NCBI GenBank assembly: GCA_027624715.1
Contig: JAQBTV010000009.1
Span: 1-50,046, forward strand
From: Pseudomonadota bacterium
GTDB taxonomy: Bacteria; Pseudomonadota; Gammaproteobacteria; Burkholderiales; Eutrophovitaceae
DNA: 50,046 nucleotides
Direction of reading: 5' to 3'
Each line of letters starts with the position of its first letter. The first letter of the stretch is position 1. Positions 5,828 to 50,046 of the stretch are shown piece by piece. The position numbers and the translations under genes are program-made. The notes beneath the pieces were generated by a model. That model ran no database searches and was not told the origin of the DNA. It was given only the letters and a program-made list of their open reading frames with translations.

Positions 5828-5993
5828 CCCTTCTCTGGCTTGGATGCCTAAGTACCCGAGAAATTCGGCGATTTTTTTTCTGATAGCCAATATTTTATTA
5901 TTGGCATAGGTTGGCTTGTAGGGTATGTGTTTCTAAAGTTGATTTTAGAAATGATGTGCGCAGCCAGTATTAATTTTTGTATGGAGGTTGGTT

Positions 5994-6476
5994 ATGTTTA
6001 GATACTTAGGGTTGTTCTTGTGTTTATACGCGTCTGTAGTTTTCTCTGGGCACCACGAGCCAAAGGAACATCCTAGTGAGATGCATATCATGAATGCCTG
6101 GGTCAAAGAGCCGTTGCCGGGTGTTGATGCCACTGGGGCATATCTCTTCATTCACAATCATGGAAAACTTGCTGATCGTTTGATTGGTGTATCTACTGCT
6201 ATTGCAAAGCTGAGTGAGATTCATGAAATGTTCCATAAGAACGGTGTTATGAAGATGCGGCGGTTGAAGTCGGGCATTTCGATTGCGCCTGACCAAAAAG
6301 TGCAATTGAAGTCAGGTGGATTACATATCATGCTTTTTCATCTCAATAAACCGATTAAGGCGGGTGAGGCGTATATTCTGACGTTAGAGTTTGAGAAGAG
6401 TGGGCGAGTAGATGTACCTGTTATTGTGAAAAAAGGTGCAGACTCAAAATCTCATGACCAACAACATAGTCACTAA
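5994..6476 (+). CDS. Periplasmic copper chaperone, PCu(A)C family
   Basis: A PCu(A)C-type cupredoxin-like domain that delivers Cu(I) to the CuA or CuB site of cytochrome oxidase. The start chosen is the ATG at 5994, seven bases after GGAGG; the upstream in-frame TTG at 5988 is too close to that site. A signal peptide (1-19, ending FSG) precedes a His-rich HHEPKEH. The family copper motif H-x(n)-M-x(22)-H-x-M is seen as His77, Met88, His111 and Met113. The extra His residues at both ends (HDQQHSH) could also bind copper. It is monocistronic here, with no Sco or oxidase gene nearby and the copper operon 34 kb away. Confidence 0.85.
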   Translation: MFRYLGLFLCLYASVVFSGHHEPKEHPSEMHIMNAWVKEPLPGVDATGAYLFIHNHGKLADRLIGVSTAIAKLSEIHEMFHKNGVMKMRRLKSGISIAPDQKVQLKSGGLHIMLFHLNKPIKAGEAYILTLEFEKSGRVDVPVIVKKGADSKSHDQQHSH

Positions 6477-10371: not shown

Positions 10372-11679
10372 TTGAGTAATTTTTCTCCTCATTTATCTGA
10401 AAGAAGTTTGAACGCCATTTGGCATCCCTGTAGTCAAATGAAAAGACTGCAATGGTGTCCGCCGCTAGCGATTCGCTCTGGTCATGAGGGGTGGCTTGTC
10501 GATGAATCTGGTCGTCGATACTTCGACTCCATCAGCTCGTGGTGGGTCAATATTTTGGGTCATACCAATCGGCGCATCACCGATGCAATCATTGAGCAGG
10601 CCAATCAGCTCTCACACGTCATGCTGGGAGGCTGCACGCATGAGCCAGGGGTTAGGCTTGCCGAGCGATTGGCGGCAAGGACCGGCCATCAACTAGGTCA
10701 CGTTTTTTTTGCGTCTGATGGGTCGAGTGCAGTCGAGATAGCGTTGAAGCAATGTTTTCATGCAAAGGCGATACAGGGACAGGTATCTAAGACTCGATTC
10801 GCTTGTTTGCGTAATAGTTATCATGGCGAAACCATTGGCGCATTATCGGTTACTGACGTGCCATTATTTCAAAATGCCTATCGTGCGTTATTGACTGAAA
10901 CGTTCATTGTTGAAGCGCCTGATAGTCGGGCTAGTAATGAAGATGCGGCGCTCAAGGCGCTATCCGATTTGCTGAATGAACGGGGCAATGAGATCGCAGC
11001 TTTGGTGATTGAGCCGCTTGTTCAGTGTGGTGGGGGTATGTCCATGCATTCGCCAGAGTATTTACGTAAGGCCAGACAGATGACTCGTCAGCACAATGTC
11101 TACCTAATTGCGGATGAAATTGCTGTTGGATGCGGCAGGACGGGTACTTTTTTCGCTTGGGAGCAGGTGAGCGAAACAGATTGGCCTGACATTGTTTTGC
11201 TTTCGAAAGGGATCACTGGTGGTAATTTGCCCCTATCGGTTGTGCTCAGTTCAGAGGAGATTTTTAAGTGTTTCCTGAGTGATGACTTCACAAAAGGATT
11301 TCTGCATTCTCACTCATATACCGGGAACCCATTAGCCTGTGCTGCGGCTAATACTGTTCTGGACCATTTCGATGAAGGATTGACTGATACCATCGGTCTG
11401 CAAGCGCAATATCTAACTCGGGCCTTTGATCGCTTCAATAGCGACTCTCGTGTTTCACCAGTAAGGCAGTGCGGCATGATACTCGCCTTCGAGGTCAATA
11501 ATCCAGGTGATAATTTTGCGGAACGTTTTCATATGCAAGGTCGTGCCCATAAACTTTTGACCAGACCTATCGGGAATACGGTGTATTTGATGCCGCCTTA
11601 TGTGCTCAATCAGGAATTAGCTGAATTTCTTGCGAATGCTATAGAGCAGTGCATCGATAAAGTGTTGAACGGATGTTAA
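10372..11679 (+). CDS. bioA: Adenosylmethionine-8-amino-7-oxononanoate aminotransferase
   Basis: A PLP enzyme that moves an amino group from S-adenosylmethionine to KAPA to give DAPA, the third step of the conserved biotin pathway. Family marks are IWHPCSQM near the N-terminus, SSWWVNILGH, the SYHGET block, ADEIAVGCGRTG, the PLP-lysine region LLSKGITGG and HSHSYTGNPLAC. The start is TTG at 10372: the frame is closed by TAA at 10357, and the first ATG (10438) would remove the conserved IWHP block. The HPC (rather than HPY) motif and RPIGNTVYLMPPYVL tail resemble Burkholderiales BioA as I remember it. The 3' end overlaps bioF by 7 bases. Confidence 0.93.
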   Translation: MSNFSPHLSERSLNAIWHPCSQMKRLQWCPPLAIRSGHEGWLVDESGRRYFDSISSWWVNILGHTNRRITDAIIEQANQLSHVMLGGCTHEPGVRLAERLAARTGHQLGHVFFASDGSSAVEIALKQCFHAKAIQGQVSKTRFACLRNSYHGETIGALSVTDVPLFQNAYRALLTETFIVEAPDSRASNEDAALKALSDLLNERGNEIAALVIEPLVQCGGGMSMHSPEYLRKARQMTRQHNVYLIADEIAVGCGRTGTFFAWEQVSETDWPDIVLLSKGITGGNLPLSVVLSSEEIFKCFLSDDFTKGFLHSHSYTGNPLACAAANTVLDHFDEGLTDTIGLQAQYLTRAFDRFNSDSRVSPVRQCGMILAFEVNNPGDNFAERFHMQGRAHKLLTRPIGNTVYLMPPYVLNQELAEFLANAIEQCIDKVLNGC

Positions 11680-12893
11680 TTAGAAAATTACAAGACAAAA
11701 TGAATGTGCTGGAGCACTCGGATTTGTTGCGGCACAAATGGATTGCGCAGTCAAAAACTGGAACGCAGCAGATGCTCCTTAATTCCAGTCAATCGAATCT
11801 AAGTAAGCAAACATTATTTTGTTCTAATGATTATCTCGGTTTTGCGAGTCATCCAGATATTTTGTGTGCGTTGAAGGAGGGGGTTGACCGCTGGGGCGGT
11901 GGTTCAGGGGCGTCTCACTTAATCAGTGGCCATATGGCTCCCCATGAGGAGCTCGAAGTGACGCTCAGTCAATTGTTTTCGCGTTTAATACCCGACAATC
12001 GTTGCCTCACCTTTTCAACAGGCTATATGGCTAATCTAGCTGTGATGACTGTTTTGGGAGATGTGTCCTCTGAAATTTTTTCTGATGAACTCAACCATGC
12101 GTCTTTAATTGATGGGATTAGGCTTTGTAAGGGCAAGATTAATATTTATAAACATCGTGATTACGATGCGCTTACTGAACTGTTAGAGAAAAGTACTGCG
12201 GATATTCGGTTGATTGTCACTGATGGCGTTTTCAGCATGGATGGTGACCAGGCGAATGTGGATGTATTGCAAAAATTAGCCTATAAGTACGACGCATGGA
12301 TCGTGTTGGATGACGCTCATGGTTACGGTGTTATTGGGGATGAAGGCTTAGGCAGTCTTGAGGTCGAGCAATCAATCAACGGTCGTGTGATCCTTATTGG
12401 AACACTAGGCAAGTCTGCTGGGCTATCGGGTGCTTTCATTGTCGCTCACCAGACGATTATTGAGTACATTTTTCAGACGGCTAGAACTTACATTTATACG
12501 ACGGCGCCACTGCCTGCTATTTCGTATGCATTGGTTAAGTCTCTTGATTTAATGCATGGTGGTGAGGGGAAACAACGGAGAGGTCATTTGCGGGTACTCG
12601 AACAACATCTCCGATGTGGCTTGTCTCAGCTAGTGGTTGAGCATTCAAATGCTGGGTTGACTATTTCAGAGTCTGTCTCTCCAATTCAAGCTGTCATTGT
12701 GGGAGAGTCGCGGCGAGCTATGGATCTGTCGGCTGGTTTGAGTGAATTAGGGTTTCGGGTGTCTGGCATAAGACCACCCACAGTTCCAATTGGAACGTCG
12801 CGTATTAGATTGACGCTTTCGGCAGACCATACAATTGATGATATTGATCGTTTGATTGATGCCTTTCATGCACTTTTTAATAAAAGGATCTAA
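11673..12893 (+). CDS. bioF: 8-amino-7-oxononanoate synthase
   Basis: A PLP-dependent alpha-oxoamine synthase that condenses pimeloyl-ACP/CoA with alanine to KAPA, the substrate of BioA. It has FCSNDYLGFASHP, GGSGASHLISGH, DELNHASLIDGIRL, DDAHGYGVIGDEG, the PLP-lysine segment TLGKSAGLSG, and the BioF ending IRPPTVPIGTSRIRLTL. The ORF starts inside the end of bioA (7-base overlap), implying translational coupling; a second ATG at codon 10 is an alternative start. The family-specific tail separates it from Kbl and HemA relatives. Confidence 0.92.
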   Translation: MLIRKLQDKMNVLEHSDLLRHKWIAQSKTGTQQMLLNSSQSNLSKQTLFCSNDYLGFASHPDILCALKEGVDRWGGGSGASHLISGHMAPHEELEVTLSQLFSRLIPDNRCLTFSTGYMANLAVMTVLGDVSSEIFSDELNHASLIDGIRLCKGKINIYKHRDYDALTELLEKSTADIRLIVTDGVFSMDGDQANVDVLQKLAYKYDAWIVLDDAHGYGVIGDEGLGSLEVEQSINGRVILIGTLGKSAGLSGAFIVAHQTIIEYIFQTARTYIYTTAPLPAISYALVKSLDLMHGGEGKQRRGHLRVLEQHLRCGLSQLVVEHSNAGLTISESVSPIQAVIVGESRRAMDLSAGLSELGFRVSGIRPPTVPIGTSRIRLTLSADHTIDDIDRLIDAFHALFNKRI

Positions 12894-12896
12894 GCC

Positions 12897-13574
12897 GTGC
12901 AGTATTTTGTGACTGGCACTGATACCGAGATAGGAAAAACTACGATAACAGTTGGTTTGGTGTCCGCTGTAGTTAAAGCCGGTCATACCTGTGTGGGTCT
13001 TAAGCCGATAGCTGCAGGTCAGGATTGCGTGAACGGCGTTTGGGTCAACGAGGATGTTTTACGTTTGAGTCAGGTTTGTGATCCTGCGATCAGTATTGAT
13101 CAGGTTTGTAGTTATCAGTTTAGAACGCCTTGTGCACCCGAGATCGCAGCAGGCCTTGAGCAACAAGTGATCGATAAAAATATTGTTTTGAAGCATCTCC
13201 GTACGTCGATTAGTTACGCTCAGTATGCTTTTGTTGAAGGGGTTGGGGGGTTCAATATACCGTTAAGCTCGAATTGGACGACTGCCGATTTAGCGGTTGA
13301 CTTACACTTCCCGATCATTTTAGTTGTTGGAATGAGACTTGGATGTGTGAATCATGCGATGTTGACGCGTGAGGCGATTGATCGTCGAGGACTAGCTTTT
13401 GCTGGTTGGGTGGCTAACTTCGCGGACCCAAATTTTTCTTTCCCAGACGAAAATTATAAGACGTTGCAGGAACAACTAGGTGGACCGTGCCTTGGTAAGG
13501 TCCCTTTCCTTTCGGATACTCGACTGGATATAGCGCCTAATGTATTCCAATTGGACAGGCTACTTCTGGAGTGA
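12897..13574 (+). CDS. bioD: Dethiobiotin synthetase
   Basis: An ATP-dependent ligase closing the ureido ring of DAPA with CO2 to make dethiobiotin. The P-loop GTDTEIGKT (about 6-14), the KPIAAG motif and the EGVGGFNIPLS segment are diagnostic. The start is GTG at 12897, 3 bases after the bioF stop, with AAGGA upstream. Length (225) is standard. bioB, bioC and bioH are not in the window, so the remaining steps must be encoded elsewhere. Confidence 0.92.
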   Translation: MQYFVTGTDTEIGKTTITVGLVSAVVKAGHTCVGLKPIAAGQDCVNGVWVNEDVLRLSQVCDPAISIDQVCSYQFRTPCAPEIAAGLEQQVIDKNIVLKHLRTSISYAQYAFVEGVGGFNIPLSSNWTTADLAVDLHFPIILVVGMRLGCVNHAMLTREAIDRRGLAFAGWVANFADPNFSFPDENYKTLQEQLGGPCLGKVPFLSDTRLDIAPNVFQLDRLLLE

Positions 13575-42376: not shown

Positions 42377-42402
42377 ACCAAGCATAAAAGAGGACATTGA
42401 GA

Positions 42403-43821
42403 ATGGACAACAGCAGGCGCAGACTTTTAACATCGGCTAGCGGGATCTTACTAGCGAGTGCGGTTGCTTTTAGTCCCGTTTCCAAGCACGCTCTGGCTGG
42501 GTTACCAGAAATTACAAGTAAGGATGACGCGGAAACAAACTCTTCATCAGATCAGCATGAGGGTAAATATAATCCCGTAGTTACACTAAACGGTTGGACT
42601 TTGCCTTGGCGGCTAAACGAGGGGATAAAAGAGTTTCATCTCGTGGCAGAGCCAGTCGTCAGGGAATTAGCCCCGGGGTTTAAGGCACATCTTTGGGGTT
42701 ACAACGGACAGAGTCCTGGACCGACAATTGAGGTAGTGGAGGGAGATCGAGTTAGGCTGTTCGTTACGAATCGCTTACCAGAGCGAACCAGTGTGCATTG
42801 GCACGGACAGAGACTTCCAAACGGGATGGATGGTGTTAGTGGTTTAACTCAAAAGGCTATTGAACCTGGAAAAACTTTCGTATACGAGTTTATGGCAAAG
42901 CGACCAGGTACCTTTATGTATCATCCGCATTCGGATGAGATGACGCAGATGGCAATGGGAATGATGGGATCCTGGGTAACCCACCCGAAACAGACTAACC
43001 CATTAATTACTTCAGTCGATCGTGATTTTTGTTTTTTGCTAAATGCGTACGATATTGAGCCTGGGAGTTATACCCCAAGAGTTATGACAATGACGGATTT
43101 CAATATATGGACGTGGAATAGCAGAGTATTTCCGGGGATAGATTCATTGAATGTTCGATTAAACGACCGAGTACGTATAAGGATTGGAAATTTAACGATG
43201 ACCAATCATCCGATACATTTGCATGGGCATGAATTTGAGGTTACGGGAACTGACGGTGGCGCAACCCCAAAGGGTTCTCGATGGCCTGAGGTGACAACGG
43301 ATATCGCTGTTGGTCAGATGCGACAGATAGAGTTTGTTGCAAATGAGCCAGGCGATTGGGCCCTCCATTGTCACAAAAGCCATCATACGATGAACGCCAT
43401 GGGACACGAGGTCCCGACAATGATTGGTATCGATCACCGAGGTGTAGCCGAGAAAATTAGTGATTTAATTCCCGACTATATGGTGATGGGTGAGCGCGGC
43501 ATGGGGGACATGAGTGAAATGGAGATGCCACTTCCTGATAATACAATTCCAATGATGACTGGACCGGGACCATATGGTTCTTTAGAGATGGGAGGTATGT
43601 TCAGCGTTTTAAAAGTTAGGGAAGATCAGCTTCCTAACGATTATTCTGATCCTGGTTGGTACCAGCAGCCCAAGGATACCCAAGCTGTTTCCATTAATAA
43701 ATTGGAGGAGGATGCGGTTCGCCGAAGCGAACCCGGACAGTCTTTGATGTCAGTGATTAAAGACGGTCGGGATTCTCTTGAAGTTAAAGTAAGAAAGCCT
43801 CGGAAGCATAATCATTCTTAA
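42403..43821 (+). CDS. Multicopper oxidase, copper-resistance type
   Basis: A Tat-exported multicopper oxidase (SRRRLLTSASG at the N-terminus) that would oxidise Cu(I) to the less toxic Cu(II). Copper motifs are HWHGQRL, HPHSDEM, HPIHLHGHEF and HCHKSHHTMNAMGHE, giving the T1 Cys/His and the trinuclear His cluster. Met-rich stretches (MTQMAMGMMG, MGERGMGDMSEMEM) are likely extra copper sites, as in CueO/CopA. Length is about 472. The ATG at 42403 after GAGG is chosen over the TTG at 42397. A small CusF-like gene follows after 15 bases. Confidence 0.9.
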   Translation: MDNSRRRLLTSASGILLASAVAFSPVSKHALAGLPEITSKDDAETNSSSDQHEGKYNPVVTLNGWTLPWRLNEGIKEFHLVAEPVVRELAPGFKAHLWGYNGQSPGPTIEVVEGDRVRLFVTNRLPERTSVHWHGQRLPNGMDGVSGLTQKAIEPGKTFVYEFMAKRPGTFMYHPHSDEMTQMAMGMMGSWVTHPKQTNPLITSVDRDFCFLLNAYDIEPGSYTPRVMTMTDFNIWTWNSRVFPGIDSLNVRLNDRVRIRIGNLTMTNHPIHLHGHEFEVTGTDGGATPKGSRWPEVTTDIAVGQMRQIEFVANEPGDWALHCHKSHHTMNAMGHEVPTMIGIDHRGVAEKISDLIPDYMVMGERGMGDMSEMEMPLPDNTIPMMTGPGPYGSLEMGGMFSVLKVREDQLPNDYSDPGWYQQPKDTQAVSINKLEEDAVRRSEPGQSLMSVIKDGRDSLEVKVRKPRKHNHS

Positions 43822-43836
43822 TAAGGTAACAAGCAA

Positions 43837-44214
43837 ATGTATAAAACAAATATTAAATTTTTACTAGCAATATTTTTATCATCTTTTCTAAGCGCCACGA
43901 ACGCAGGTCACCATGAAGGCGCCCATATGGAACATGATGAAGTGAACCATCAACAAAACTCTTCATCATGTGCTGATGATAGTTCCTGTTCTATGGCGCA
44001 TGGAGTTGTCTTGAGTCTAAGTAAAGAGGTTAGCAAGATAACATTACGGCATGGAGAAATTCCGAATATAGATATGCCACCGATGACAATGGTGTTTACT
44101 GTGGAAGATTCCTCATTGATGCAAAACCTAAAGGAAGGGGATCATGTTCTTTTTCATGTAGAGAATATTGGTGGCGAGTACATAATTAAAGATATGATTG
44201 AGGATCATCATTAA
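43837..44214 (+). CDS. CusF-like periplasmic copper-binding protein
   Basis: A 125-residue protein. A signal peptide (~1-23) is followed by a His/Asp/Met-rich stretch (HHEGAHMEHDEVNH) and a CusF domain. Aligned to CusF His36/Trp44/Met47/Met49, it keeps His, Met47 and Met49 (in MPPMTM) but has Met in place of the cation-pi Trp44. This should change Cu(I) geometry and may allow a three-Met/His site. It ends the copper operon. Confidence 0.83.
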   Translation: MYKTNIKFLLAIFLSSFLSATNAGHHEGAHMEHDEVNHQQNSSSCADDSSCSMAHGVVLSLSKEVSKITLRHGEIPNIDMPPMTMVFTVEDSSLMQNLKEGDHVLFHVENIGGEYIIKDMIEDHH

Positions 44215-45174: not shown

Positions 45175-45500
45175 CTAAATTTTTTTAATCAAAAAAATTA
45201 AATCGGTAGATCTGCCCGCCCGGCATAACGAGCTGCACCGCCTAGTGCTTCTTCCCTCATTATGTTCTTTAAGTGTGAAATTAACCTCATATAAGAAAAC
45301 CTCGATATTTGGAACCATTGCCATGGCGTAAGATAATTTTTTATCGAATTGGCCGGCAACAATAATTCCACGCACATCTGAATCTTTTTTTTGTTTTTCA
45401 ATCCATCCCATGTAACGGGTTAGTTGACCTACGGTATCGTCGCCGGTTTGATTTTTTTGAGTTCTATTACTATGTGGTGGCGATTATTTTTTCTAATGAT
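45175..45500 (-). pseudogene. Truncated, frameshifted NucS/RecB-type nuclease remnant
   Basis: The minus strand reads NNRHHIVIELKK in one frame and TGDDTVGQLTRYMGWIEKQK in the next. They join if the A7 run at about 45451 had one more A. IELK and QLTRY are the E-x-K and QxxxY elements of PD-(D/E)xK nucleases of the NucS/DUF91 or RecB type, and VRGIIVAGQFDKKLSYAMAMVP is the usual following strand-helix. The N-terminal part of the gene is missing where blh begins (the two overlap at 45493-45500), so this is a decayed C-terminal domain. Confidence 0.65.
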
Positions 45501-46365
45501 TAGGATGTATCACTCTGTCTACCAATAGCATATGAGGCACTGTCAGGCAGGCTAGACCCACAAATGTCAGTTGCAAGATACGTGTGTAATTGAGTGAATC
45601 TGGTAAATAGATCCAACTCAGCAGAAAGATTAAAACAACCCCTAGCATTGGTAACAATGATGTGAACAAAATCTTCTTCCAACTGAGTTTCGAATAAGAT
45701 TGGGTTCGTAAAATATGTCTGATGCTATGCATCCCACAGAAAAATAGGGTAAAACTGATTAAGGGTTGAGCAAAAATCGCTAATAAACTGACAGCGAGTA
45801 ATTCAATTGCTTGAAAAGTGTTTCTATAGCTTTCAAACGCAATGCTCAAAATTAAAAGAATTAAATAAGGTAATGCAATGAGGTGTAAAAAATTCACAAC
45901 AAGCAATCCATCGTCCTGATTTAAGATTAATGTAAATAAATTGACCATCACGTCATAGTGGAGAAGTGTTGGTAAGACAATGACAGTGCCACCATACAAA
46001 AGCTTAGTTATTCTCGGAGCAGTATTTTCTAAATCTCTTGAGAAATGGAAGACTGAAAGGCACAAAAATGATACTATAAATAGTAGGGGAGAGAGCACCC
46101 AAAAAATGATCATCGCCAAACCTAACAGGCCATACAGTAAGACAAAGTAGGACCAGGATTGCCAGGTGTTTACAGATAGTAATTTCTTGGCGAAAATAGG
46201 ATCCAAGGCACCATGAGGTACTCCTAGAAAAAGAATAACGATTGCTGGGATCATTAAATAAGTGAGGTTGTCAGTGGGTTGCCAAAAAATACTTATAGTG
46301 ACAACTATTAGCGCCAGTATGCTAAAGCAGATACCTTGGGCTTTAATCTGATTCATCGACTTCAT
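45493..46365 (-). CDS. blh: Brp/Blh-type beta-carotene 15,15'-dioxygenase
   Basis: A 290-residue integral membrane enzyme that cleaves beta-carotene into two retinals, the chromophore of microbial rhodopsins. About seven to eight hydrophobic segments are visible. The family hallmark GVPHGALDP (His51, Asp55) is present, as are the later His in VFHFSRD, GMHSIRHIL and VPHMLLVD, which supply the iron ligands. The ATG overlaps the crtB-crtY stop by ATGA. It is the last gene of the operon on this strand; a rhodopsin is not found in the window. Confidence 0.9.
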   Translation of the reverse strand: MKSMNQIKAQGICFSILALIVVTISIFWQPTDNLTYLMIPAIVILFLGVPHGALDPIFAKKLLSVNTWQSWSYFVLLYGLLGLAMIIFWVLSPLLFIVSFLCLSVFHFSRDLENTAPRITKLLYGGTVIVLPTLLHYDVMVNLFTLILNQDDGLLVVNFLHLIALPYLILLILSIAFESYRNTFQAIELLAVSLLAIFAQPLISFTLFFCGMHSIRHILRTQSYSKLSWKKILFTSLLPMLGVVLIFLLSWIYLPDSLNYTRILQLTFVGLACLTVPHMLLVDRVIHPNH

Positions 46366-48449
46366 CTCTTTGGAAAACGAAAGACTTCCTTTAAGAAAGG
46401 GAGCGGTGGCAAAGCAGTGACTACTGCAAGGTAATCTAATATACCGCCGTGATCAGATAGAAAACGAATCAGTCTTGGATGGCTTACCTTAGAAAACATA
46501 TCCATAAATAGCGACGATCCCATCGCGGGATTATTTCGCAGCACATTTAAAAAGATATTATCCATTTTTGATATTAGAAAGGGGTCGGTAGGTTGCGCGA
46601 CTGGTAGACCTGTTCTACGAAGTTCTTTTGCGCACTCTTGCGCCCAAGTTTGGATCCGTTGAAATGTATAACCAGTAGCCGGCCTAGCTGAACCTGCTGT
46701 TACACCAACCTGTGCATAACTTTTCGGAATCGCACTGCTGTGCTTTGGATGTCTAGCACCCAATCCCATTGGTATGAGACCCGATTCTGTCCTAATAATT
46801 GAAAATGGACTTTCCCCTACATACTCCGAAACTGTTTTATTTAATCTTTCTAAAAGATCGTCTTTGGAATAGGCTTGACTTCCAAAGCTGGTAAATTCAA
46901 TTAATGCTTTTGTTGTTGAAAAGGGCAAAACATAAGTAAAGCCAACAAAATCATTGTTTGCCTCACAAAAGTCCATCAGGTGGGCTGTATTTGGATCAAA
47001 TAAGGGATTGTTACATTCAATCTCATAGCCTACGAAGGATTGCCAGAGTGTGATATCTCCCATCGTATCCATCGGAAGAGGACGTGTATCAATAATTATT
47101 TTGCTTATAAAACTTCCAGCATCTGTTTGAACTAACCAGCCATTATCCAACTGGAATGGTTCATTGGTCAGTTTGATGCCCTTACGTAGCTGTAGCTTAT
47201 TATTTTTCTCAATCGTCTCTAGGGTGTGTTGGTAGAAGTCACTGGCAATTAACAGTTGATAAGGGGAGGCTTCACACTCAATGAGCGCACTCCGCTGCTG
47301 AGAATCTTTAACTTGCACTTTTGACCAGCGATTTTGAACCAACTCCATGAACGGCGTTTTTGGATGTCCCCAGAAGCACCAAGTTCGATCATTATGGTAC
47401 TCAGTCCGTTGTTCAAGAAAAATGGTTTTAGGAGCATCTTCACCCATCTCGGCTAGATTGAAGCCAAGACTTAATCCTGCGCAGCCTGCGCCAATCACAA
47501 TGACATCGGTGACAATATGGTTCATTTTAGAAAGCCCAACATACGTGTGAGGATGCAATGGTTTCTGTAGCGCTACATCATGATTTTTTGGGCGAAACCA
47601 AAAATGGGGGTTAAAGCATGCCGTCACTATCGTTAAGCAGGTAATAACAATTTTTCTTGGAGTAGAAACAACCATGCGTCGATCCCAATAGGCATAGTCT
47701 TCTGATGCCAGCTGATTGCCAATATCGTGATAAATACGAGCTGCAATGAGAATGGAGATCCTCGCCCGCAGTGGTAAATAGAACAGCCCCTTTTCTCCAC
47801 TTTGATAATAGTGATCCGCCAACTTTAAAAGACTAGCAACTGCAAGCCGTAAAACTGTTGCTTGTTCTTCATTGGGGGCAATTAGGTGAGCTACTTCAAT
47901 GTTCCCGATTAAGCTATTGGGAATATATTGACGATTCACCAAAGCATCCGCCTTGATATCTCTGCAGATATTAGTGAGTTGCATTGCTATCCCCAAATCA
48001 ATCGCATAGGGCTTCGCATTCTGGTCTTGAACATCTAAGGCGTAGCACATCATCAGTCCAACCGTGCCGGCTACCTGATAACAGTAATGAAGCAAATCAG
48101 GCTCATTCACTATCCTAACGAGTTCAGTATCTGACTCAATTCCTGCAATTAGATCAAAAACAACCTCTTGCGGGATATGACATTGCTGGATTAATTCAAT
48201 GCCACTGCTCAAGCTGGCTTGATCTGTAGATCCCTGTAATAGCGCTTGACGCGCCTCCATAATATTTTGTTTGCCCGAATCTACTTGACCCTCTTCATCG
48301 ACCATGTCATCAAGATATCTGCAAAAACCATAGAGTCGCATTGCTCTGTGACGATATTTTTTCCCTAAAAAATGACTCGCCCAATAAAAGCTTTTACCCT
48401 TATTTTGCAGTAGTTGATGAGCAACTGAATGAGGAGTGGTTAATTTCAA
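46362..48449 (-). CDS. crtB-crtY: Fused phytoene synthase-lycopene beta-cyclase (CrtB-CrtY)
   Basis: One uninterrupted 695-residue frame holds two enzymes. Residues ~1-295 are phytoene synthase: the Asp-rich motifs are YLDDMVDE (Asp47-Asp51) and NICRDIKAD (Asp164-Asp168), which bind the diphosphates of GGPP. A short linker leads to residues ~309-695, a full-length FAD-dependent lycopene cyclase: VIVIGAGCAGLSL at ~316, then the NDRTWCFWG segment and the GARHPKHS loop; an internal Met309 marks the likely old start. The fusion links the first carotenoid step and the final ring closures. It overlaps both neighbours by 4 bases. Confidence 0.9.
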   Translation of the reverse strand: MKLTTPHSVAHQLLQNKGKSFYWASHFLGKKYRHRAMRLYGFCRYLDDMVDEEGQVDSGKQNIMEARQALLQGSTDQASLSSGIELIQQCHIPQEVVFDLIAGIESDTELVRIVNEPDLLHYCYQVAGTVGLMMCYALDVQDQNAKPYAIDLGIAMQLTNICRDIKADALVNRQYIPNSLIGNIEVAHLIAPNEEQATVLRLAVASLLKLADHYYQSGEKGLFYLPLRARISILIAARIYHDIGNQLASEDYAYWDRRMVVSTPRKIVITCLTIVTACFNPHFWFRPKNHDVALQKPLHPHTYVGLSKMNHIVTDVIVIGAGCAGLSLGFNLAEMGEDAPKTIFLEQRTEYHNDRTWCFWGHPKTPFMELVQNRWSKVQVKDSQQRSALIECEASPYQLLIASDFYQHTLETIEKNNKLQLRKGIKLTNEPFQLDNGWLVQTDAGSFISKIIIDTRPLPMDTMGDITLWQSFVGYEIECNNPLFDPNTAHLMDFCEANNDFVGFTYVLPFSTTKALIEFTSFGSQAYSKDDLLERLNKTVSEYVGESPFSIIRTESGLIPMGLGARHPKHSSAIPKSYAQVGVTAGSARPATGYTFQRIQTWAQECAKELRRTGLPVAQPTDPFLISKMDNIFLNVLRNNPAMGSSLFMDMFSKVSHPRLIRFLSDHGGILDYLAVVTALPPLPFLKEVFRFPKR

Positions 48450-49933
48450 AAAAGTTTGACCTCTCCGACGCTCGGAATCAATTTATCGATCAATTTAGCC
48501 GACGAGATGACGCCGGGTAGACCAGCCCCGGGATGACTCCCGGCACCAACTAAAAAGAGATTCTTAATACCTTCAGCCTTGTTATGAAAGCGGAACCACG
48601 CTGACTGAGTAAATAGTGGGGAGATCGAAAATCCAGATCCTTGAGAGCTTAAGTAATTTTCTTTAAAGTCCTCAGGTGTCATATAAAAATCATCTGTAAT
48701 GGTTTGAGAAAGATTAGGCATGATCGTTTTCTCAAGTGCAGTAACGATACGATCTCGTAAGTTAGGGCCTTCAATTGACCAATCTTGCCCACCCAATAGA
48801 TTAGGTACTGGACATAAAACATAAAAACTGTCACATCCTTTAGGGGCAAAGCTAGGATCGGTGGCAGTAGGACGATGCAAATACAATGAAAAGTCCTCTG
48901 TTAGGATCTTTCGATCAAAAATGTCCTTTAGTAATTCTTGATAACGCTCACCTAACCAAATCGTATGATGTGCAATATCTGGATAGGTTTTCGTGGTACC
49001 AAAATACAGTACAAAAAGACCCATTGAGAGTTTGGCTTTTTTAATCTTTAAGCGAGCCAAAAAATGCAGCTTACTGGGCTTAATCATTTTGGTATATAAG
49101 TGGACGGGGTCGGTATCTGATACTACTACGTCAGCCATCAGCGTATTTCCGTTCTCAAGCAGAACTCCGGTTGCCGCATCCGTCTCAATGACGAGCGACT
49201 TTACAGTCTGACCTAAAACAATATGAATACCATTACGTCGCATCAGTTGCTCTAATGCTTGGGTAATGGCGTGCGTTCCACCCATTGCAAAAAAAACGCC
49301 ATATTCTCTTTCTAGGTAATGAATCAAGCCGTAAATGCTGGTGGTATCAAAAGGGTTGCCACCCACCAAGAGTGGTTGTATAGAAAATGCCTGACGGAGT
49401 TTGTCATTTTTTAAATATTGGCTAACTAATTGCCAAACCGTCTTGTAGCACTGCAGGTCGATGAGTCTAGGGATCTGCTTGATCATGGTCCAAAGACGAT
49501 CGAAGGGCTCCGTAGCTAGCTCAACAAAACCCACATTGAAAATTCGCTTAGAGTGTGCTAATAATTTTAGATAGCCATCACAATCAGTAGGTTCAATCCG
49601 ATTAATTTCGCTTAAAGTTTCTTCAAGCGTACCACCATAATCAAAATGATCACCATCGGCAAAGACAAATCGATACCAAGGTTTTAGGAGGACAAGCGTA
49701 ACGTGATCAGCGAATTTTTCATTGAAAAGAGCAAATAGCTCTTCGAATAGGAAAGGGGCAGTAATAACAGTTGGGCCTGCGTCATGCCGGAAGCCATTTC
49801 TTTCGAAAAATTGGGCTCTGCCACCCAGTTGTTCGCATCGCTCGATTAAGGTAACTTCATAATTCTTTGCGCGAAGTCTTAAGGCGCTTGCAATTCCACC
49901 AAATCCTGCGCCGATAACGATGGCATGTTTCAA
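48446..49933 (-). CDS. crtI: Phytoene desaturase
   Basis: A 495-residue FAD enzyme converting phytoene to lycopene. It opens HAIVIGAGFGGIASALRL and ends with the family signature GAGSHPGAGLPGV. ITAPFLFEELF and the HRPTATDPSFAPKG segment are other CrtI blocks. The start is TTG at 49931-49933, which overlaps the upstream gene's TGA stop as TTGA; this mirrors the ATGA overlaps with crtB-crtY and blh and supports the TTG. It provides lycopene to the cyclase half of the next protein. Confidence 0.92.
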   Translation of the reverse strand: MKHAIVIGAGFGGIASALRLRAKNYEVTLIERCEQLGGRAQFFERNGFRHDAGPTVITAPFLFEELFALFNEKFADHVTLVLLKPWYRFVFADGDHFDYGGTLEETLSEINRIEPTDCDGYLKLLAHSKRIFNVGFVELATEPFDRLWTMIKQIPRLIDLQCYKTVWQLVSQYLKNDKLRQAFSIQPLLVGGNPFDTTSIYGLIHYLEREYGVFFAMGGTHAITQALEQLMRRNGIHIVLGQTVKSLVIETDAATGVLLENGNTLMADVVVSDTDPVHLYTKMIKPSKLHFLARLKIKKAKLSMGLFVLYFGTTKTYPDIAHHTIWLGERYQELLKDIFDRKILTEDFSLYLHRPTATDPSFAPKGCDSFYVLCPVPNLLGGQDWSIEGPNLRDRIVTALEKTIMPNLSQTITDDFYMTPEDFKENYLSSQGSGFSISPLFTQSAWFRFHNKAEGIKNLFLVGAGSHPGAGLPGVISSAKLIDKLIPSVGEVKLF

Positions 49934-50046
49934 TTTAAATCTTCCAAATTAACTCTTTTATCTTCAGTGGTGCTTATTAAATATTTTTTTAATAAGAGGC
50001 TCGACCTTGAGGCTAGGAATCTAAAAGTGTTAAAGCTAGTTATCCT
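49930..50046 (-). CDS. 3' end of an upstream gene in the carotenoid operon (cut by the window)
   Basis: The last 38 codons of a minus-strand gene run from the window edge to a TGA at 49930-49932 that overlaps the crtI TTG start. The tail reads ...SLLLKKYLISTTEDKRVNLEDLN. No domain can be seen in this piece. By gene order in rhodopsin-linked carotenoid clusters (crtE-crtI-crtB-crtY-blh) it could be crtE (GGPP synthase), but the visible sequence does not show it. Confidence 0.6.
   Translation of the reverse strand, partial: RITSFNTFRFLASRSSLLLKKYLISTTEDKRVNLEDLN

Follow-up and report, generated by a model that had tools for sequence, protein, structure and literature searches.

Results

A single frame encoding CrtB and CrtY

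The window, by which we mean the whole 50,046-nt stretch of DNA analyzed here, contains on its minus strand a single open reading frame of 695 aa with a TTG start (46362-48449), in which a complete CrtB is followed by a complete FAD-type CrtY, as the initial annotation had described. In hmmscan searches, the squalene/phytoene synthase family PF00494 matched residues 15-263 with 187.1 bits against a cut-off of 26, and the FAD-type lycopene cyclase (CrtY/CrtL) family PF05834 matched residues 315-686 with 161.4 bits against a cut-off of 23.4, each over nearly the full length of the profile. The crtB part comprises residues 1-308 (47526-48449, minus strand), including a tail that reaches the last codon before Met309. 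The crtY part comprises residues 309-695 and the stop codon (46362-47525, minus strand) and begins with its own ATG, the in-frame codon of Met309 at 47523-47525. The motifs previously claimed for the two halves are also present: LDDMVDE (residues 46-52) and RDIKAD (163-168, within RDIKADALVNRQYIP at 163-177) as the first and second Asp-rich motifs of CrtB, and GAGCAG (320-325, the FAD motif) and DRTWCFW (354-360) in CrtY, which further contains LIEFT (516-520). We take all five to have their usual roles in these enzymes.

The NCBIfam equivalog models all scored below their cut-offs, with 148.6 bits against 480 (NF042419) and 157.4 against 500 (NF045921) for CrtB, and 56.2 against 215.2 (TIGR01789) and 94 against 209.5 (TIGR01790) for CrtY; the best NCBIfam model for the CrtB half, HpnD, was also below its cut-off (159.6 against 278.6). 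Therefore, the names CrtB and CrtY are based here on Pfam, motifs and operon context. The same genome carries two further PF00494 genes that adjoin each other on contig C8 and that we take to be hopanoid genes; thus, the operon context favors the identification of the gene in the window as crtB. A PDB sequence search returned nine distinct sequences, all of the synthase type and all aligned to the CrtB half, with CrtM (8is6) and phytoene synthase (5iys) as the best matches, and no match to the CrtY half. As a separate observation on the cyclases, the CrtY proteins of three members of genus g3 in the same family (L037, L038 and L039) read LLFQTTYIG, LLQITYIG and LLQVTYIG where the window has LIEFTSFG. 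Gln thus replaces the Glu that we assume to be the catalytic residue of FAD-type lycopene cyclases.

The surrounding operon

The fused frame lies in an operon, crtI-crtBY-blh, on one strand with a 4-nt overlap at each joint, and the gene order crtI-crtB-crtY-blh is that of a retinal-synthesis operon. Upstream is crtI (48446-49933, minus strand), a member of the phytoene desaturase family (TIGR02734, 551 bits; cut-off, 238.1), which shares TTGA at 48446-48449 with the fused frame, in agreement with the overlap reported earlier. Downstream is blh (45493-46365, minus strand), encoding beta-carotene 15,15'-dioxygenase (TIGR03753, 155.5 bits; cut-off, 95.25; also PF15461), and the shared sequence is ATGA at 46362-46365. 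A further frame end of 38 codons (49930-50046, minus strand) overlaps crtI with TTGA and leaves the contig.

The contig thus ends 113 nt before crtI, exactly where relatives carry rhodopsin or crtE. We compared the upstream stub with two crtE and three rhodopsin sequences of relatives; the scores were no better than those of shuffled sequences (in the best case, 15 of 200 shuffles scored as high), and the stub was assigned to neither. No match to the rhodopsin family PF01036 was found in the window's genome, in a search that was positive for 8 of the 17 family members; another rhodopsin search likewise found none, and in that search no control genome matched either. Given that the contig stops so close to crtI, the genome may nevertheless have a rhodopsin gene. 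Because no rhodopsin was found, the purpose of the retinal is deduced from relatives. The genome also carries two polyprenyl synthase genes, both outside the contig of the window.

Elsewhere in the window, we noted copper-handling genes at 5988-6476 and 42397-44214 (a PCu(A)C chaperone, a multicopper oxidase and a CusF-like protein), and three consecutive genes at 10372-13574 (class-III aminotransferase, class I/II aminotransferase and AAA_26) that look like bioA, bioF and bioD.

Distribution of the joint frame

We compared 58 loci (the last 6 kb of the window, L034, L036-L048 and L058-L100). In 32 of them, the window included, crtB lies directly before crtY, so that the order I-B-Y is ordinary for this type of operon, but the two genes share a frame only in the window (1 of 32). 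In the family, 9 of 17 genomes gave a PF05834 match at E<=1e-18, and the eight besides that of the window all have adjacent crtB and crtY in separate frames. At the same threshold, the matches numbered 19 among 399 genomes of the order, 16 among 369 of the class and 36 among 398 of the phylum; these sets and that of the family overlap, and together they contain 68 distinct genomes with a match. In none of the 67 other than the window's own does CrtB occur in the frame of the cyclase. Two further PF05834 frames exceed 600 aa, in G071 (1200 aa) and G571 (820 aa), and were rejected as B-Y fusions; CrtB there lies in another frame, after crtI.

The initial annotation had asked whether the same fusion is already common in related genomes. 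We looked for it and did not find it, either in the 31 other B-Y operons or in the 67 other genomes, and the search for the two-domain architecture within the Pseudomonadota sets gave no second B-Y frame. Nor was there one in the family of G138, described below (64 genomes, matches at E<=1e-28). In the named genome collection there was one relative, L034, where crtY was not found in the stretch examined. Viral contigs gave a single 15-residue match and no match to the junction pattern, and phages gave two records with partial matches. Among 230 plasmid records, the 25 listed are all from Pantoea, and in these the annotation gives crtY and crtB as two distinct genes. We also observed that two loci from genomes of 0.3-0.4 Mb (L070 and L071, from G924 and G1028, possibly insect symbionts) have crtI-crtB-crtY, with blh not found in the stretch.

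The sister operon

Next, we built trees of CrtB (57 rows), CrtY (52 rows) and CrtI (56 rows; a quick tree), leaving out rows with under 70% domain coverage (the partial CrtI of L036 is one example). The CrtB, CrtY and CrtI of the window are each sister to those of G138 (support 99/87, 100/97 and 97, respectively), a genome of the same order and a different family, and are placed apart from the remaining members of the window's own genus. This suggests that the CrtB and CrtY halves share one history, which is the only use made of these trees, in view of their long branches and varying row make-up. Operon exchange between families, or unevenly kept old copies, would explain the placement. The identities between the window and G138 are 71% for CrtI, 46% for CrtB, 44% for CrtY and 34% for Blh.

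The G138 operon, rhodopsin-crtE-crtI-crtB-crtY-blh, has crtB and crtY in separate frames. Its CrtI and CrtB, on the other hand, lie in a single frame (L072:2253-4682, on G138:C1) of 810 aa from the ATG, or 869 codons from stop to stop. This is the only such case among 55 adjacent crtI-crtB pairs, and it probably represents a CrtIB fusion outside the Verrucomicrobiota, if the assembly is right. None of 28 crtY-blh pairs is in one frame. The window and its sister operon thus carry one singleton fusion each, each from one assembly. In G1119, which belongs to the genus of G138 and lies outside the 58 loci, CrtI (73% identical to that of G138) and CrtB are in separate frames, as are crtB and crtY. 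In the same genome, at about 7600-7880 of L117 (G1119:C31, reverse strand), a G138-like CrtB tail (RHHD...) occurs in a frame other than that of the domain.

Anatomy of the junction

The junction occupies 47522-47528 of the minus strand and consists of AAA (codon 308), ATG (Met309) and a following A; it contains a relic ATGA (47522-47525) and a run of four A (47525-47528). The initial annotation had proposed a short linker with an internal Met309. The methionine is indeed in frame, but the supposed linker belongs to CrtB and CrtY themselves. In the eight other genomes of the family, the CrtB tail extends 32-39 residues beyond the end of the domain, as defined by a purpose-built profile, and the residues of the window up to 308 align with this tail; past Met309 there is a short lead and then the Rossmann fold of CrtY. 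Judged by this alignment, the frame has no added linker: the residues to 308 are the tail of CrtB and Met309 is the start of CrtY. The domains are separated by 129 nt in the window and by 25-179 nt in the 31 unfused crtB-crtY operons. Given a spacing within the unfused range and a native tail and start, nothing was inserted, and the frames seem to have been joined at a pre-existing contact point.

We then enumerated single-base changes at the junction. The sequence TCT AAA ATG AAC is a single base away from a two-gene state, by either of two routes. With one A fewer in the A-run, a 308-residue CrtB ending in ...PLHPHTYVGLSK results, and its TGA overlaps Met309 as ATGA; such an ATGA overlap is the crtB-crtY junction in 8 of the 31 unfused operons (L041-L044, L074-L076 and L079). 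If instead codon 308 (TAA for AAA), 303 or 298 were a stop, two genes in phase would result, and crtB and crtY are in phase with an intervening stop in 5 of the 31 (L059, L078 and L084-L086). The sites where a stop could have been missed are thereby narrowed to the A-run at 47525-47528 and codons 298, 303 and 308. Either the A-run route or the stop-codon route may have been taken.

So perfect a start/stop relic fits a very recent event and an assembly error equally well. In the latter case, crtB and crtY would be distinct genes in the organism, either overlapping in ATGA or with a stop immediately upstream of the ATG, and one wrong base in the assembly would join them. We regard this as unlikely, although it is the most serious alternative. 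A single base at an A-run is enough to join the frames, and the fusion, confined to one of 32 B-Y operons, is known from one assembly of one species, with no second case. In addition, the CrtB tail of G1119 seems to shift frame near the same junction, which indicates that such changes, real or not, occur in the assemblies of relatives. However, the run is of just four A, and the window proteins tested against Pfam (36 of the 63 listed ORFs; 3 of the 36 had no family) gave no sign of split genes. Given that no neighboring pair of these proteins consists of pieces of one family, frame errors are infrequent in the part tested. A missing 16S gene would suggest a short-read metagenome assembly. We did not find a 16S gene in this genome, but the same search missed it in 5 of 14 control genomes, and little weight can be placed on the result.

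The crtB start has a ribosome-binding signal of -8.2 kcal/mol, whereas the signal before Met309, -2.4 kcal/mol, is no stronger than that of random 18-mers (median -2.7). The signal is at background level at the blh start as well (+0.7 kcal/mol), and at 11 other start codons tried in the window it ranges from -0.9 to -12.6 kcal/mol. Given this wide spread, a weak signal by itself proves little; it agrees with a coupled arrangement, crtY having been translated after crtB. It also bears on a second alternative, that the fusion is real yet CrtY is made alone as well, from the retained Met309, and exists in the cell alongside CrtB-CrtY. The whole N-terminus of CrtY is retained together with Met309, and signals as weak are evidently compatible with starts, as at blh and several other genes of the window. 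Nevertheless, with a signal at random level before Met309, and with termination-reinitiation presumably unavailable once the crtB stop is lost, we consider separate production of CrtY improbable.

Discussion

On the basis of the sequence comparisons above, we propose that the window probably carries a real and very young CrtB-CrtY fusion within a retinal-synthesis operon of the ordinary kind (crtI-crtB-crtY-blh), and that its product would serve retinal synthesis as a bifunctional enzyme. In the previous state, crtB and crtY would have been separate and translationally coupled, with the stop of crtB overlapping or touching the ATG of crtY. If the assembled base is correct and the direction of change was from two genes to one, the stop would have been lost through a single-base change at the junction (an extra A, from AAATG to AAAATG, or AAA in place of TAA at codon 308), and the frames would have merged with no residues lost. 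If the frame is expressed and both halves are enzymatically active, the N-terminal half would convert GGPP to phytoene and the C-terminal half lycopene to beta-carotene; CrtI would act between these steps, and Blh would cleave beta-carotene to retinal. The likely consequence would be that CrtB and CrtY are equally abundant and co-located, rather than direct channeling.

A broader idea can be offered only tentatively, as it may well not hold in full: that a real bacterial fusion of CrtB with FAD-type CrtY arose when one base changed where stop and start were coupled, that retinal operons with overlapping genes are prone to repeated fusion, and that bacteria would here show the first step of a route which protists followed independently using a different cyclase. 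The proneness to fusion is suggested by the CrtI-CrtB frame in the sister operon of G138. Carotenoid-enzyme fusions are already known from fungi, protists and Verrucomicrobiota. The present case, if real, extends this list by a bacterial B-Y fusion that has an FAD-type cyclase, and it displays the birth of a fusion with the scar still readable, that is, a stop lost at a tight gene junction. It also makes a question testable: with the first and last steps joined and CrtI acting between them, is the flux to beta-carotene helped or harmed? Should it prove a sequencing slip, it would serve as a useful warning about calling fusions at junctions of overlapping genes from one assembly alone.

We finally compared the fusion with known systems. 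In the fungal CrtYB/CarRA proteins, the two domains occur in the reverse order. Like the frame in the window, these proteins hold phytoene synthase and lycopene cyclase in one chain, and they are a known type of natural fusion (PMC2889829, PMC5924542). The initial annotation rightly set them apart: their cyclase is homologous to CrtYcd (PMC2889829), whereas that of the window belongs to PF05834 and comes second. Among the matches listed in the literature searched, we found no report of a bacterial fusion of CrtB with FAD-type CrtY. PMC10284914 mentions 'CrtBY and CrtIBY' as natural fusions, with references to PMC5924542 and to an engineering paper; we take 'CrtBY' there to mean the fungal CrtYB.

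The thraustochytrid CrtIBY, which makes beta-carotene in yeast (PMC10016063, PMC5924542), has the order I-B-Y in common with the window, and the bifunctional protein of Noctiluca likewise joins CrtB and a cyclase in one chain (PMC10016063, PMC5924542). In both, however, the cyclase is eukaryotic and of the CrtYc/d type, and CrtIBY includes CrtI, which in the window occupies a separate frame. According to PMC10016063, the thraustochytrid CrtYc/d has an origin independent of CrtY/CrtL, and the protist CrtI is placed beside Bacteroidetes. The earlier suggestion of an intermediate towards CrtIBY is therefore unsupported, and kinship with it is rejected on the type of cyclase. An old, selected bifunctional enzyme that is a forerunner or relative of CrtIBY is thus very improbable, in spite of the shared order and the single CrtI-CrtB frame in the sister operon; the lack of a linker, the intact start/stop relic and the absence of the fusion from every relative searched also speak against it. 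The fusion in the window and CrtIBY are alike in joining neighboring steps of one pathway.

Other counterparts are bacterial. The natural CrtIB fusion in PR-1 operons of Verrucomicrobiota, described in PMC10284914, and the CrtI-CrtB frame of G138 are, like the present one, fusions of neighboring genes in a retinal operon, although the enzyme pair is I-B in Verrucomicrobiota and B-Y in the window. The crtI-crtB-crtY-blh operons of rhodopsin photosystems agree with the window in genes, order and overlaps or near-contacts and, in the loci compared, in cyclase family. They differ in that the window has no rhodopsin found and no crtE nearby, its contig ending just before crtI, and in that their crtB and crtY are separate genes, whereas in the window the two form one frame.
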